Source: Planktothrix paucivesiculata PCC 9631 (GTDB lineage Bacteria > Cyanobacteriota > Cyanobacteriia > Cyanobacteriales > Microcoleaceae). Taken from it: DNA of 64,000 nt. The DNA is taken from contig NZ_LR735025.1 of NCBI RefSeq assembly GCF_900009265.2, forward strand, positions 14,855-78,854. The letters are read 5' to 3'. The notes under the pieces were generated by a model that saw only the letters and a list, made by a program, of their open reading frames with translations, ran no database searches and had not been told where the DNA came from. Position 1 is the first letter of the stretch; every line of letters starts with the position of its first letter. The translations under genes and the position numbers were made by a program. This document shows, piece after piece, positions 59,904 through 64,000 of this stretch.

Positions 59904-62900
59904 TTAGATATCCAAATCCGTCAAATTCAAGCGGGGGGCGTGGGTTTCGATGAACTCCCGACGGGGGGCCACCCGATCGCCCATTAATATGGTGAAAATC
60001 CGATCAGCTTCGGCAGCATCTTCCACTTCCACCCGTTTAATCATCCGAGTTTCTGGGTTCATAGTAGTTGTCCAAAGTTGTTCGGGCATCATTTCCCCTA
60101 ACCCTTTAAACCGTTGAATATTGTAGTTAGCATTGGCGGGTAAACTTCTCAAATGCTCCTGCAATTCCTGTTCATTGTAACAGTATTGATGGTTGCGTCC
60201 CCGTTCTACTTTGTACAGGGGAGGACAGGCAATATAAATATAGCCTTGATCGACTAATTCCCGTTGATAACGATAGAAAAAAGTGAGCAATAAAGTCCGA
60301 ATGTGAGCGCCATCAACGTCCGCATCGGTGTTATGACAGCAGAGTCCTCCAGTGCCACAAACAAAGTTTTCATCCCCATCAACGGAGAAGTCATAAACAT
60401 ACTCTCCGACTAATTCAATTTCCTCTGCTTTGACAACTTTTAATCCCATTAAATCTTCACTAATGGGTAAATAATCCATCGGTTTTTGAGTGGGAAGTTG
60501 TAGATAGGCGTTGAGTTTTTCCGCCCCTAAATGACGTTGCCAAATTAGACGACAACTTTCGAGTTGTTGTTTGCCACAAAGGGTAAGAGTATAGTAGGGA
60601 TAACGGGTTTGAATTGGGGCTGTGTGATTCAATTGAGGTTGATGTTCACTGGTACTAGCAATTAATCCCAATTGTCCGAATAAATAGAGTAATCCATTTT
60701 TAATTGAATTGGAGTTAGTTGTCCAAGAAATATTCGCCCCACTGGTTGTACCATCTCCTAAGAAATAACCCTCTAAAAAGGCAAGTTGTAAAGGTTCAGT
60801 CACCGAGAAAACCAGATCGGGAATTTGTTTTTCATGGGATTTTTTTCCTAATCCCCATGCTTGTAACAGTCGGGCAGCAGCCACACTATTAAAATAGAGT
60901 TTAATGCCCTGACTTTCGGGATCATTATAGCGGCGTGGGGTTTCCCCAAATACCTCTTGAATGGCTGTAATTAACTCAGGAATAAATCGTTCATCTTTCG
61001 TGCCTAAATTCAGGCTGACTTGATGTTTTGATAGGCTTCCTTCCGCTACATACCAACCCAAAAACCACATCAATTCTGAAGTAATGGGTAAATAGCGATC
61101 GAAGGCTTTATTCTGGTGGGCTTGAGGAACAATTTTTAGGTTATCCCCCAACTCAATTAACTCGCTAGGTGTGAAGTATTCAAAGGGTTTGTAATTACTA
61201 ACTTCTCGCCAACGGGCGTTTTTACTGGTGTCATCTTGAGTCAGGAGTTGATCAATTTTAGAGGGAAGGGTTTGGTAAACAATATTTTCGTTACCTCCAA
61301 TTGTCTCTAAATAATCTAAGAAATTAGACAAAATTGGTCGATTAATTCCCCGTTCCCAGTGACTAATAGTAATGGGTTGTTTGACTCCAATGGCTGTTGC
61401 CAATTGTTTTTGAGTCATGCCTAATGCTTGACGTTGGGCAATTAATTGTTGCCATCCTTCGGCATCTAATTCAACCCTGGTTTCACTGAATAATTCCGGT
61501 TTTTCAACCTTCGCTAAAATTCGCCGACTGGCAATTTTACGAACATCTTCTCCTTGTAAATATAAGGATTGATTCACACCCGCTTCGTAGAAGGTTCGGA
61601 GTAAATCAATTCGAGTTTGGGGTTCAGTTGAACGGGGCAAACGACGACTGGCAACTAACCAATCTCCGGGTTTAATTTCATTGCCTTTTTTGAGTTTAAC
61701 TTCCCCGTTTTCATACACAAAAACACTATGGGAAGATGTGACTTTAATCTGACGATTATAGCGAGTCGTCAGTTGATACATGGGTTCTTCATGCCCGTGA
61801 CGAATTACGGCTTTAATCGGACGAAAACGGGTGGCATGGGTTACGGGATCAAAAGCAACCACTTGATAGCGTTCTGGGGTACGTTTCCCCTTGATACACT
61901 CATCAATAAACTTGCCAATTTCTACAAATTCAGTTTTTCCGGTATCTTCCATTACTAGGGTTGGTTCATCACCCGCAACGCTCATAATTATGACTTTATG
62001 ATACCGCAATTGAGAAGCATCAAATTCTTCTCCTTTTATCCCTAATCCTAATGCTGTAATTAAGGATTGAATTTCATTATTTTTGTAGATTTTGGCGTCA
62101 TCGGTTTTCTCGATATTGAGGATTTTTCCGCGTAAAGGAAGAATGGCTTGGGTACGGCGATCGCGTCCTTGTTTTGCACTATTATGCACAAATATACCCG
62201 CCGATAATGCGAAGTTATGGCTATGGGGAACTTCAATATCATAAACATCATGACGTTCTTCTAACCATTCGATAGAAACTACCCGATGATTGTAGTTCCG
62301 AATAGCAGTTCTGGTGGCAACTTCATCCCCTTCAAAATAGCGATCGCAAAAGGTTTTAAAGGTCTGATCTTTTTGCGGTTTAAGAGAGTTTGCTGACGGG
62401 TTATAGATCTGATAGAGTGATGCTAGGGTTCGAGCATAATCGCTTTGATATTGAGATTCTAAACGCTCTTGATCTTCCCGTTGTTTGAATTGATAGGTAT
62501 TAGCTAATACAGGGGGATCAATCCATTGATCAGAACCGGGATTCCAAACCTTTTGATTACTCTTTAATTCCCCATTATTTTCCGAGTAATGAAACGGCAT
62601 TAAGGAATCTTCTGGGGTTAATTCTGCTGCTGCTTTGTAAGTGCGATCGCGCAACATAAACGGGTGATCGGGAGTACAAATCAGGGTTTCCCCGTTATCT
62701 AAAGTTAATTGCACGACTTGGGCATTTTGTTTCGTAAGTCGGGCATGAATTACCCGCTCAATCCCTATATTTCCACTATTATTAATCGTATAGCAAAAAT
62801 GCTCTTTCCCTTGATTTTGTTCCTCAACAATTTCTTGAAATGTTTTCTCTGAACCATCGGCTAACCGAATCAAAGTAGAACCCAAAAAACAGCCTCCGGC

Positions 62901-64000
62901 ACTATCGCCTTCAACTAAGAAAATCTCGGATTCTTGAGGATCACGGGTACTACAATCCGCTAATTTACCAGGTAAAGGAGAGGATTCTAAAACCGATTTC
63001 CGACGGACTAAATCCCGAGCTCGTCGAGCGGCTTCTGCGGCTTTAAATGCTTGAATTGCTTTTTCAATTACGGCATCAGCAACCCCGGGATTAAATTCTA
63101 AATATTCGGTTAAAGCTTCCCCCACCAAGGAGTCAACAATTCCCCGAACCTCTGGATTTCCTAATCGGGTTTTAGTTTGTCCTTCAAATTCAGGATCGGG
63201 GACTTTCGCAGAAATAACGGCGGTCAGACCTTCTCTGATATTTTCCCCGCCTAAATTTGCATCTCCTTCTTTGAGTTTATTCCGTTTACGGGCGATCGCA
63301 TTTAAGGTTCGAGTCAGAACGGTTTTTAACCCTTCTAAATGAGTTCCCCCATCGATAGTTCTAATATTATTAGCAAAGCCTAAAACCGTATCACTATAGG
63401 CATCGGTACACCACTGCAAAGCAACTTCTATTTGAACATTACTCCGTTCTCCACAAGTATAAATAATATCTTCATGGAGGGGTTGTTTATCGTTGTTCAT
63501 GTAGGCGATATACTCCCGAATTCCGCCTTCATAACGGTAGGTTTCTATCCGGGGATTTTCACGATTTAAGAGTTCTAAACGACTATCTGTCAGAGTAATT
63601 TTAACTCCCGCATTCAAATAGGCGAGTTCCCGTAAACGGGAAGCAATGGTATCACAATCAAACTCAATTCCGGTAGTAAAAATTGACGTATCAGGTAAAA
63701 AGGAAACGGAGGTTCCGGTGCGGGCTTCTTTGATCGGTTTTGAGGTGAGTTCCGTGGCAGGAGTTCCCCGTTCAAAGCGTTGGGAATATTCTTTTTTATC
63801 CCGAAAAACCGTAACTTCTAACCATTCTGATAAGGCGTTAACAACGGAAACCCCGACCCCGTGTAAACCCCCCGAAACTTTATAACCACCCCCCCCAAAT
63901 TTACCCCCGGCGTGGAGAACGGTTAAAACCGTTTCTAAAGCGGACTTTCCGGTTTTAGAATGGGTATCGACGGGGATACCGCGACCATCATCGGTGACGG
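59904..64000 (-). CDS. gyrB: DNA gyrase subunit B with two inteins, partial (5' end outside window)
   Basis: The frame enters from the right edge with no stop. The extein holds the GHKL ATPase part ([40 protein letters not shown]), the transducer ([10 protein letters not shown]) and the TOPRIM domain. VEGDSAGG joins SAKQGRDRR only after removal of intein 1; RYHKVIIM joins TDADVDGAH only after removal of intein 2. It ends with the GyrB tail [13 protein letters not shown] to LNLTDLDI. Gyrase B introduces negative supercoils with GyrA. Since both inteins split TOPRIM metal/catalytic motifs, unspliced protein should be inactive. The tail length is standard for GyrB of this type. Confidence 0.96.
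60330..61982 (-). other. GyrB intein 2: Ser1 LAGLIDADG intein with embedded HTH
   Basis: A 551-residue intein in gyrB, from Ser1 ([13 protein letters not shown]) to Cys-His-Asn (GGLCCHN), with Thr as the +1 extein residue. Block B is [13 protein letters not shown]; block F is [15 protein letters not shown] homing endonuclease is present with two LAGLIDADG-type motifs, FLGWYVAEG (intein residue ~307) and LEGYFLGDG (~403). At ~179-215 lies a Cro/C1-type helix-turn-helix, [19 protein letters not shown] followed by [10 protein letters not shown]. It interrupts the TOPRIM DxD motif, at M|TDADVDG. All core motifs look intact. Confidence 0.93.
62181..62891 (-). other. GyrB intein 1: Cys1 mini-intein
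   Basis: A 237-residue intein in gyrB, from Cys1 ([13 protein letters not shown]) to Asn (GIFVHN), with Ser as the +1 residue. Block B is [11 protein letters not shown]; block F is [16 protein letters not shown]. It is inserted in EGDSAGG|SAKQ. It is closely similar, from memory, to the Synechocystis GyrB intein, which carries an HNH endonuclease in the middle. Here that part is replaced by about 75 residues without HNH motifs ([14 protein letters not shown] onwards), so the endonuclease has been lost. Splicing motifs appear complete. Confidence 0.93.

Follow-up and report, generated by a model that had tools for sequence, protein, structure and literature searches.

Within the window, by which we mean the whole 64,000-nucleotide stretch of DNA analysed, gyrB lay on the minus strand as an open frame (59904-63998, stop-free inside) composed of DNA gyrase subunit B (GyrB) and two in-frame inteins, with 66 codons between them. 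The 5' end of the gene was beyond the window; the whole open frame (L009) comprised 1446 aa. Taking the probable Met as residue 1 gives a precursor of 1433 aa and a predicted spliced GyrB of 645 aa. The features are listed below, with a slash at each insertion point.

62892..63998, minus strand: GyrB N-extein, ending with EGDSAGG (62892-62912); roughly the first 205 bp, at the 5' end, are outside the window
62181-62891, minus strand: intein 1 at site a (EGDSAGG/S), a 237-aa mini-intein with Cys1, block-B TPDH (in 62652-62675), terminal HN and +1 Ser
62457..62507, minus strand: deletion junction in intein 1, at which an HNH-like region of about 200 further residues is present in four sister genes
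61983..62180, minus strand: middle extein of 66 codons (SAKQ...VIIM), between both insertion sites
60330-61982, minus strand: intein 2 at site b (VIIM/TDADVDG), 551 aa, with Ser1, block-B TSSH (in 61719-61739), terminal HN and +1 Thr
61107..61622, minus strand: intein 2 residues 121-292, an accessory stretch from Hint-N to the nuclease
61284..61463, minus strand: XRE-type helix-turn-helix (HTH), about residues 174-233 of intein 2, from HTH_3 and profile matches
60513..61097, minus strand: LAGLIDADG homing-endonuclease core of intein 2, with motifs at 61035-61064 and 60750-60779
59904..60329, minus strand: GyrB C-extein, starting with TDADVDG (60309-60329) and including the stop codon

The exteins had the GyrB domains and the TOPRIM motifs, intact except for the inserts. 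Pfam placed on the frame a GyrB domain, two Intein_splicing stretches, LAGLIDADG_3, HTH_3, Toprim pieces and the GyrB C-terminus, and NCBIfam added four intein splicing regions, two of them N-terminal and two C-terminal. Solved gyrases aligned with the N- and C-terminal extein pieces; the E. coli chain 6rks_B did so as far as residue 430, consistent with EGDSAGG being residues 424-430. A preliminary description had reported two inteins in gyrB at these sites and with these splice residues, which the frame, both profile libraries and the residues themselves bore out. It had also placed them in the TOPRIM motifs. The sites were correct, but they are motif edges rather than interiors: insert 1 follows the Glu of EGDSAGG by six residues, and insert 2 stands one residue ahead of the first Asp of TDADVDG, the Glu and Asp presumably being catalytic residues of GyrB. 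Features that the description had not mentioned are the nuclease deletion that makes intein 1 a mini-intein, and the HTH module and intact-looking nuclease of intein 2. The proposed alignment with an intein-free GyrB identified the segments as inserts, the 645-aa frame of a relative (G393) running uninterrupted across both insertion points.

This gyrB was the sole GyrB/ParE-type gene found in the host Planktothrix genome, which is 97.5% complete; no further type IIA B subunit turned up there, and PF00204 and PF00986 gave one match each. From established intein chemistry and this single gene it follows that GyrB production would need two splicing events. Class 1 inteins have Cys, Ser or Thr at position 1, a block-B TxxH, a C-terminal HN, and Cys, Ser or Thr at +1. 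This signature was found in intein 1 (C1, TPDH, HN/S; PF14890, 87.8 bits against a cut-off of 35.8) as well as in intein 2 (S1, TSSH, HN/T), the first stretch of which scored 41.6 bits with PF14890, above the cut-off. We aligned 42 intein 2 rows, namely 38 of the 42 loci found in named genomes, the window, and three further genomes; L100, L110, L112 and L118 were excluded because they were incomplete or had a broken frame. Ser1, block-B Thr82 and His85, and Asn551 were invariant, and the penultimate His was replaced by Lys in nine rows. The nucleophiles do differ, as had been claimed, with a thiol in intein 1 and a hydroxyl in intein 2; to say that the inteins differ in chemistry is an overstatement, as both bear class 1 signatures. 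The suggestion of separate origins held up better, because the best BLASTP match between the two was a 37-residue stretch with E 0.18, and their nuclease types differ, that of intein 1's relatives being weakly identified. We therefore rejected the idea that one intein arose as a copy of the other.

Intein 1 is a mini-intein whose central HNH-like region has been deleted, yet the region is kept in four of the nine Planktothrix gyrB genes (the window counted), where the intein measures 434 aa. The shortened forms (237-257 aa, 5/9) have one common junction, and full-length relatives of 434-435 aa occur in many relatives. The fuller intein 1 of a sister gene matched HNH_3 in Pfam with E 0.11, under the cut-off; this sub-threshold match and inspection by eye weakly suggest an HNH-like nuclease in the relatives of intein 1. 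Site a is, we assume, the insertion site of the Synechocystis GyrB intein. The intein of Synechocystis sp. PCC 6803 resembles intein 1 in its cyanobacterial GyrB host and its Cys1/+Ser pair; unlike Synechocystis-type GyrB inteins, the window intein has no middle nuclease region. A single "gyrB" intein allele is tabulated for that strain and other cyanobacteria in the accessible part of PMC4071816.

In intein 2 of the window, both LAGLIDADG motifs, both catalytic acids and the fold were present. The motif-1 acid was retained in 39 of the 42 rows and replaced by Arg in L103 and L114 and by Gln in L117, which suggests nuclease decay in these carriers. In six Planktothrix, Nei-Gojobori dN/dS was 0.06 for the extein, 0.09 for intein 2, 0.12 for its HTH and 0.10 for LAGLIDADG, values indicating that the endonuclease is under purifying selection.

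The HTH_3 profile (PF01381) matched the window intein 2 with E 2.4e-7 and 1.6e-8, at 34.9 bits against a cut-off of 23. It was above the cut-off also in L034 and L111, slightly below it in L114, and not found with the Pfam profile in a Desulfococcaceae relative (L116). Profile matches of the region to HigA (E 4e-4) and HipB (E 4e-3) were accompanied by a Foldseek list led by XRE folds, weak throughout (best row E 0.019, none below 0.001); the P22 c2 repressor appeared there with E 0.028 and an rmsd of 1.3 Å over 56 columns. Intein 2 gave strong fold matches to the PI-PkoII and TliVMA inteins. PI-PkoII (2cw7), which we take to be the same as PI-TkoII, is an archaeal PolB intein and among the closest solved folds over Hint and LAGLIDADG. 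It was also the Foldseek top hit (TM 0.58), with an rmsd of 13.8 across the whole length, so the domain arrangement of intein 2 may differ. The host gene is another one, the profile alignment spans residues 13-131 and 296-551 only, and the sequence matches of the HTH region of intein 2 are to XRE repressors and antitoxins rather than to PI-PkoII. PI-TkoII carries an HTH-like accessory domain, according to the accessible text of PMC8966425. In TliVMA (7qss/7qsu) the accessory domain stands between the nuclease and the C-terminal Hint half, whereas the HTH of intein 2 precedes the nuclease.

The survey of relatives that had been proposed found both insertions, patchily distributed. The gyrB site occupied by intein 2 was identical across its hosts, which included cyanobacteria, Chloroflexi and members of a few further phyla. 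In the phylum sample it was matched in 14 of 386 genomes: eight matches were full-length, all at the same gyrB site, and six were weak and in other genes. The site-a intein was also present in 23 of the 41 determinable intein 2 rows, one row being cut by a contig end. Among the nine Planktothrix genes, intein 1 was universal and intein 2 was absent from three: one gene had full-length intein 1 only, two the mini form only, three full-length intein 1 with intein 2, and three the mini form with intein 2. Alleles with neither intein or with intein 2 only occurred elsewhere in the family, 18 of 55 classifiable genes having no intein.

We compared intein 2 with a GyrB extein piece (middle plus C, about 207 columns) in the same carriers. 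Intein 2 was closer to the window than this piece was in seven of 12 non-cyanobacterial carriers, several of which are MAGs, and in none of 39 cyanobacterial ones; the extein piece was the closer part in four Herpetosiphon and one Acidobacteria. These identities fit a movement of intein 2 between phyla. A quick intein tree mixed the phyla; trees fell short of proof, since the tree constrained to keep cyanobacteria together was not rejected (p-AU 0.58) and outscored the free search by 4.4 log units. The extein tree was built on the middle plus C piece only (208 columns). As for a vehicle, intein 2 was unmatched in 72,556 plasmid records; 50,697 phage records gave eight partial matches, below 31% identity and none covering 80%, and viral contigs a single 33-residue match, located in the HTH part.

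Compared with the nearest Planktothrix, the window gyrB showed a divergence peak at site a, with 9.6% in 396 nt about the site against 3.0% elsewhere (G427, p 2e-7) or 3.9% (G423, p 1e-5). The tract, which ends on its right side at site b, was chosen after viewing bins, in one of 36 pairs; three pairs without the window's genome (G000) likewise reached p < 0.05 in the same test. The excess was smaller with G255 and G424 and was not seen with four more distant Planktothrix. Intein 1 itself was at background divergence (3.9%) between G000 and G423 and its flanks diverged more, so the tract cannot simply be equated with the intein. The pattern fits recombination around site a within Planktothrix.

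We consider it very likely that Planktothrix gyrB was invaded at two neighbouring sites by unrelated inteins acting as selfish homing elements, because of their patchy presence, the nuclease decay, a cross-phylum similarity exceeding the one seen for the host protein, and the recombination signature at site a. The site-b intein is probably mobile and the site-a intein stranded. We infer the following course. The gene would be translated as a single 1433-aa precursor in which each intein folds independently. Class 1 excision would begin with an acyl shift at Cys1 or Ser1; the chain would then pass to Ser+1 or Thr+1, the Asn would cyclise and the exteins would be ligated. Both excisions together would yield the 645-aa GyrB; until then, the TOPRIM active site presumably could not form. 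The LAGLIDADG nuclease would be expected to cut insert-free gyrB alleles at VIIM/TDADVDG, probably aided by the XRE-type HTH that separates the nuclease from the N-terminal splicing half, and repair of the cut allele would copy intein 2 in. Intein 1, its own nuclease lost, would be kept since its splicing is obligatory, and could now move only by ordinary recombination or in conversion tracts begun by intein 2, 198 bp away.

It is unlikely that the two inteins are decayed passengers that can still splice but have lost all mobility. The missing nuclease region of intein 1 and the catalytic acids lost in three site-b relatives agree with such decay; the window intein 2, however, has both of its LAGLIDADG acids, the strong fold matches described above, and a nuclease region whose dN/dS is low.

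We find it distinctly improbable that the inteins are regulatory, stress slowing the splicing of one or both and thereby lowering gyrase, negative supercoiling and transcription. Splicing could in principle be limiting, as no second B subunit was found. Cys1, Cys33 and Cys72 of intein 1 were present in all nine Planktothrix, and the mini-intein DnaBi1 of M. smegmatis is made redox-sensitive by a cysteine pair (PMC6195587, accessible part). According to the same source, M. smegmatis DnaB also carries DnaBi2, which has a nuclease; it thus resembles gyrB in having two unrelated inteins in an essential DNA enzyme, one of them nuclease-less, and differs in host protein, in sites, and in that splicing was assayed there, whereas the gyrB pair is known from sequence. 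The presence of intein 1 throughout Planktothrix, even nuclease-deleted, could reflect usefulness, but would also follow from the rarity of precise deletion. Against regulation, 18 of the 55 classifiable family genes are intein-less and intein 2 is dispensed with in a third of the Planktothrix genes, a pattern not expected of an entrenched regulator, though it leaves room for a facultative effect. The earlier idea of splicing as a gate on supercoiling is therefore unsupported.

We reject as next to impossible that the assembly or the reads produced an artefact, or that this is a pseudogene beside an intact gyrB; nothing spoke for either. The frame is stop-free, the genome gave one gyrB match with a low extein dN/dS, and the same two sites are filled in independent assemblies (for example P. 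rubescens PCC7821, L077, and Planktothrix sp. PCC 11201, L099), so that read errors, once raised as an objection, are not the cause.

As for selfish invasion at two sites, the component parts are mostly of known kind, and the pattern is real and common to relatives. That bacterial gyrB has a further intein site is relevant to the use of this gene as a marker and to gyrase annotation. We found no report of a second site or of a two-intein gyrB in the open-licence literature, a weak indication that none has been published; a "type II" gyrB intein was described in two Taiwanese Thermosynechococcus, its site not being given in the accessible part of PMC9403480.

The four gyrB states within one genus offer a natural system in which to ask whether a mobile neighbour can take a stranded mini-intein along with it, and make testable whether an XRE-type HTH helps to steer a homing nuclease common to several phyla. 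We tentatively suggest, as a minor possibility, that the nuclease-less intein 1 hitch-hikes between gyrB alleles on conversion tracts from the HTH-guided intein 2 nuclease. The accessible part of a haloarchaeal mcm study names such hitch-hiking as needing research (PMC10643990). As described there, the neighbouring Haloferax inteins MCM-a and MCM-d share with gyrB close homing sites in one gene and patchy single or double occupancy; both of their nucleases are active, whereas in gyrB only that of intein 2 looks active, as judged from its sequence. The co-occurrence of the two inteins leans toward hitch-hiking: kinship-uncorrected Fisher tests gave an odds ratio of 4.1 (p 0.10) in the 55 family genes and of 4.9 (p 0.035) in the 150 listed rows of 208 matching phylum genomes. 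These tests used ORF-length classes, after four of 59 family rows cut by contig ends had been dropped; checked on sequence in 19 of the 55 family genes, including all 13 classed as having intein 2, the classes agreed in every case.

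The gyrB frame on the minus strand is stop-free up to the edge of the window, with ~ 205 bp of the gene beyond it, and the open frame in the assembly amounts to 1446 aa. The gene and its two inserts are positioned as follows.

59904-63998, minus strand: gyrB, two-intein frame
62181-62891, minus strand: intein 1, 237 aa, Cys first and HN last, between EGDSAGG and Ser (site a)
60330-61982, minus strand: intein 2, 551 aa, Ser first and HN last, between VIIM and the Thr of TDADVDG (site b)

Pfam and NCBIfam recognised the splicing domains of both inteins and the flanking GyrB pieces, and solved gyrases align with the N-terminal and C-terminal extein pieces. 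Together with the uninterrupted frame, this confirms the two inteins reported in the preliminary description, whose proposal that splicing gates supercoiling is unsupported. Family searches with two GyrB/ParE families matched one gene in the genome. Intein 2 shares 97-98% identity with the copies of P. rubescens PCC7821 and Planktothrix sp. PCC 11201.

The best reading is that of two selfish homing inteins occupying adjacent sites of one essential gene, one of the pair being stranded and the other probably mobile. Inteins are generally located near the active sites of conserved proteins (PMC3359363), cyanobacterial GyrB inteins have long been known (PMC4071816), and a GyrB mini-intein was reported in Desulfonema (PMC6390638). 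DnaB of M. smegmatis is likewise an essential DNA enzyme with two inteins, one a mini-intein (PMC6195587), and haloarchaeal mcm likewise has neighbouring homing sites, where an allele with both inteins invades more successfully when its target already holds one intein than when it holds none; aid to a nuclease-less neighbouring intein was named there as needing research (PMC10643990). In the open-licence literature searched, neither an intein at TDADVDG nor a gyrB with two inteins was reported. The biology of the pair is mostly known, and it offers one good testable system.

Intein 1 is a mini-intein. It measures 434 aa in four of nine Planktothrix gyrB genes and 237-257 aa in the window and the other four. 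The short forms lack ~ 180-200 middle residues at one common junction, which suggests a single deletion, after which the N-terminal half would have been shuffled between alleles. The missing middle is HNH-like by eye, with a sub-threshold Pfam match (E 0.11). In a sample of 386 genomes of the phylum, intein 1 as query matched 55, some of these matches being to inteins in genes other than gyrB.

Intein 2 matched 14 of the 386, eight of them at full length and all eight at the identical gyrB site; the other six gave only weak matches, in frames read as sugar-nucleotide-epimerase-like and purL-like. Distant kin of its nuclease half lie within inteins of sugar-nucleotide-epimerase-like genes in seven cyanobacterial genomes (loci L038-L044), adjoined by UDP-glucose-dehydrogenase-like genes (all identified by reading). 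Scanning named genomes for intein 2 returned 42 loci: 30 cyanobacterial, eight from Chloroflexi (four Herpetosiphon, one Ktedonobacteria, three other MAGs), and one each from Planctomycetota, Acidobacteria, an uncultured proteobacterium and Desulfococcaceae. In a Hyellaceae MAG (L110:3501-5155) the match covers 1655 bases, a length not divisible by three, and the reading frame is broken; this is a frameshift or an assembly error. Lys replaces the penultimate His of intein 2 in 9 of 42 aligned rows (L078, L079, L080, L081, L082, L095, L097, L109, L116), a change that could affect cyclisation of the Asn.

Intein 2 was closer to the window copy than the extein from site a to the C-terminus was in 7/12 non-cyanobacterial and 0/39 cyanobacterial carriers; the reverse held for the remaining five non-cyanobacterial ones (four Herpetosiphon, one Acidobacteria). 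Since the intein was always less conserved than this extein piece among cyanobacteria, the comparison points to movement of intein 2 across phyla. The tree evidence is weaker: the extein-piece tree set cyanobacteria cleanly apart and a quick intein 2 tree intermixed the phyla, and constraining cyanobacteria together in the latter scored slightly better and was not rejected (p-AU 0.58).

Alongside intein 2, site a was filled in 23 of 42 aligned rows, empty in 18 and undeterminable in one; the four Herpetosiphon rows read EGDSAGGSAKQ there. At the Microcoleaceae level, gyrB was matched in 59/61 genomes and classed by frame length as carrying neither intein (18), site a only (24), site b only (2) or both (11), four cut genes falling outside these classes. 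In Planktothrix (gyrB matched in 9/10 genomes), site a was filled in 9/9 and site b in 6/9. Co-occurrence weakly exceeded expectation, uncorrected for kinship (p 0.10 for 55 family genes; p 0.035 for the 150 phylum rows listed).

The motif-1 acid of the intein 2 nuclease was lost in 3/42 rows, and dN/dS in six Planktothrix was 0.09 for intein 2, close to the 0.06 of the extein. In a tract reaching 198 nt to each side of site a, picked post hoc and touching site b at its right edge, the window's genome diverged from its four nearest relatives 1.7- to 3.2-fold more than elsewhere in gyrB; among the 36 pairs compared, p < 0.05 also arose in three without this genome. This divergence reaches the level seen with four distant relatives, which show no excess. 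It reads as a sign of recombination around site a with a divergent donor, absent from the sampled genomes. The excess against one near relative (G423) was not seen in intein 1 itself.

The same genome (G000) has another two-intein gene, read as dnaB (L010:2267-5170, G000:C165; 968-aa frame), its first insert with a long middle part and its second mini-looking. Further intein-bearing frames, named by reading, are dnaX-like, with a mini-intein, and thyX-like, whose insert has an HNH-like CxxC segment (L011 and L012; G000:C131, C136). The surroundings of gyrB comprise:

59739-59910: heptamer-type tandem repeats AGTTATC and ACTGATT, directly downstream of gyrB
49765-49956 and 47574-47621: arrays resembling these repeats
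58230-59550, minus strand: two ORFs downstream of gyrB, by eye an ECF-type sigma factor-like protein and a partner protein
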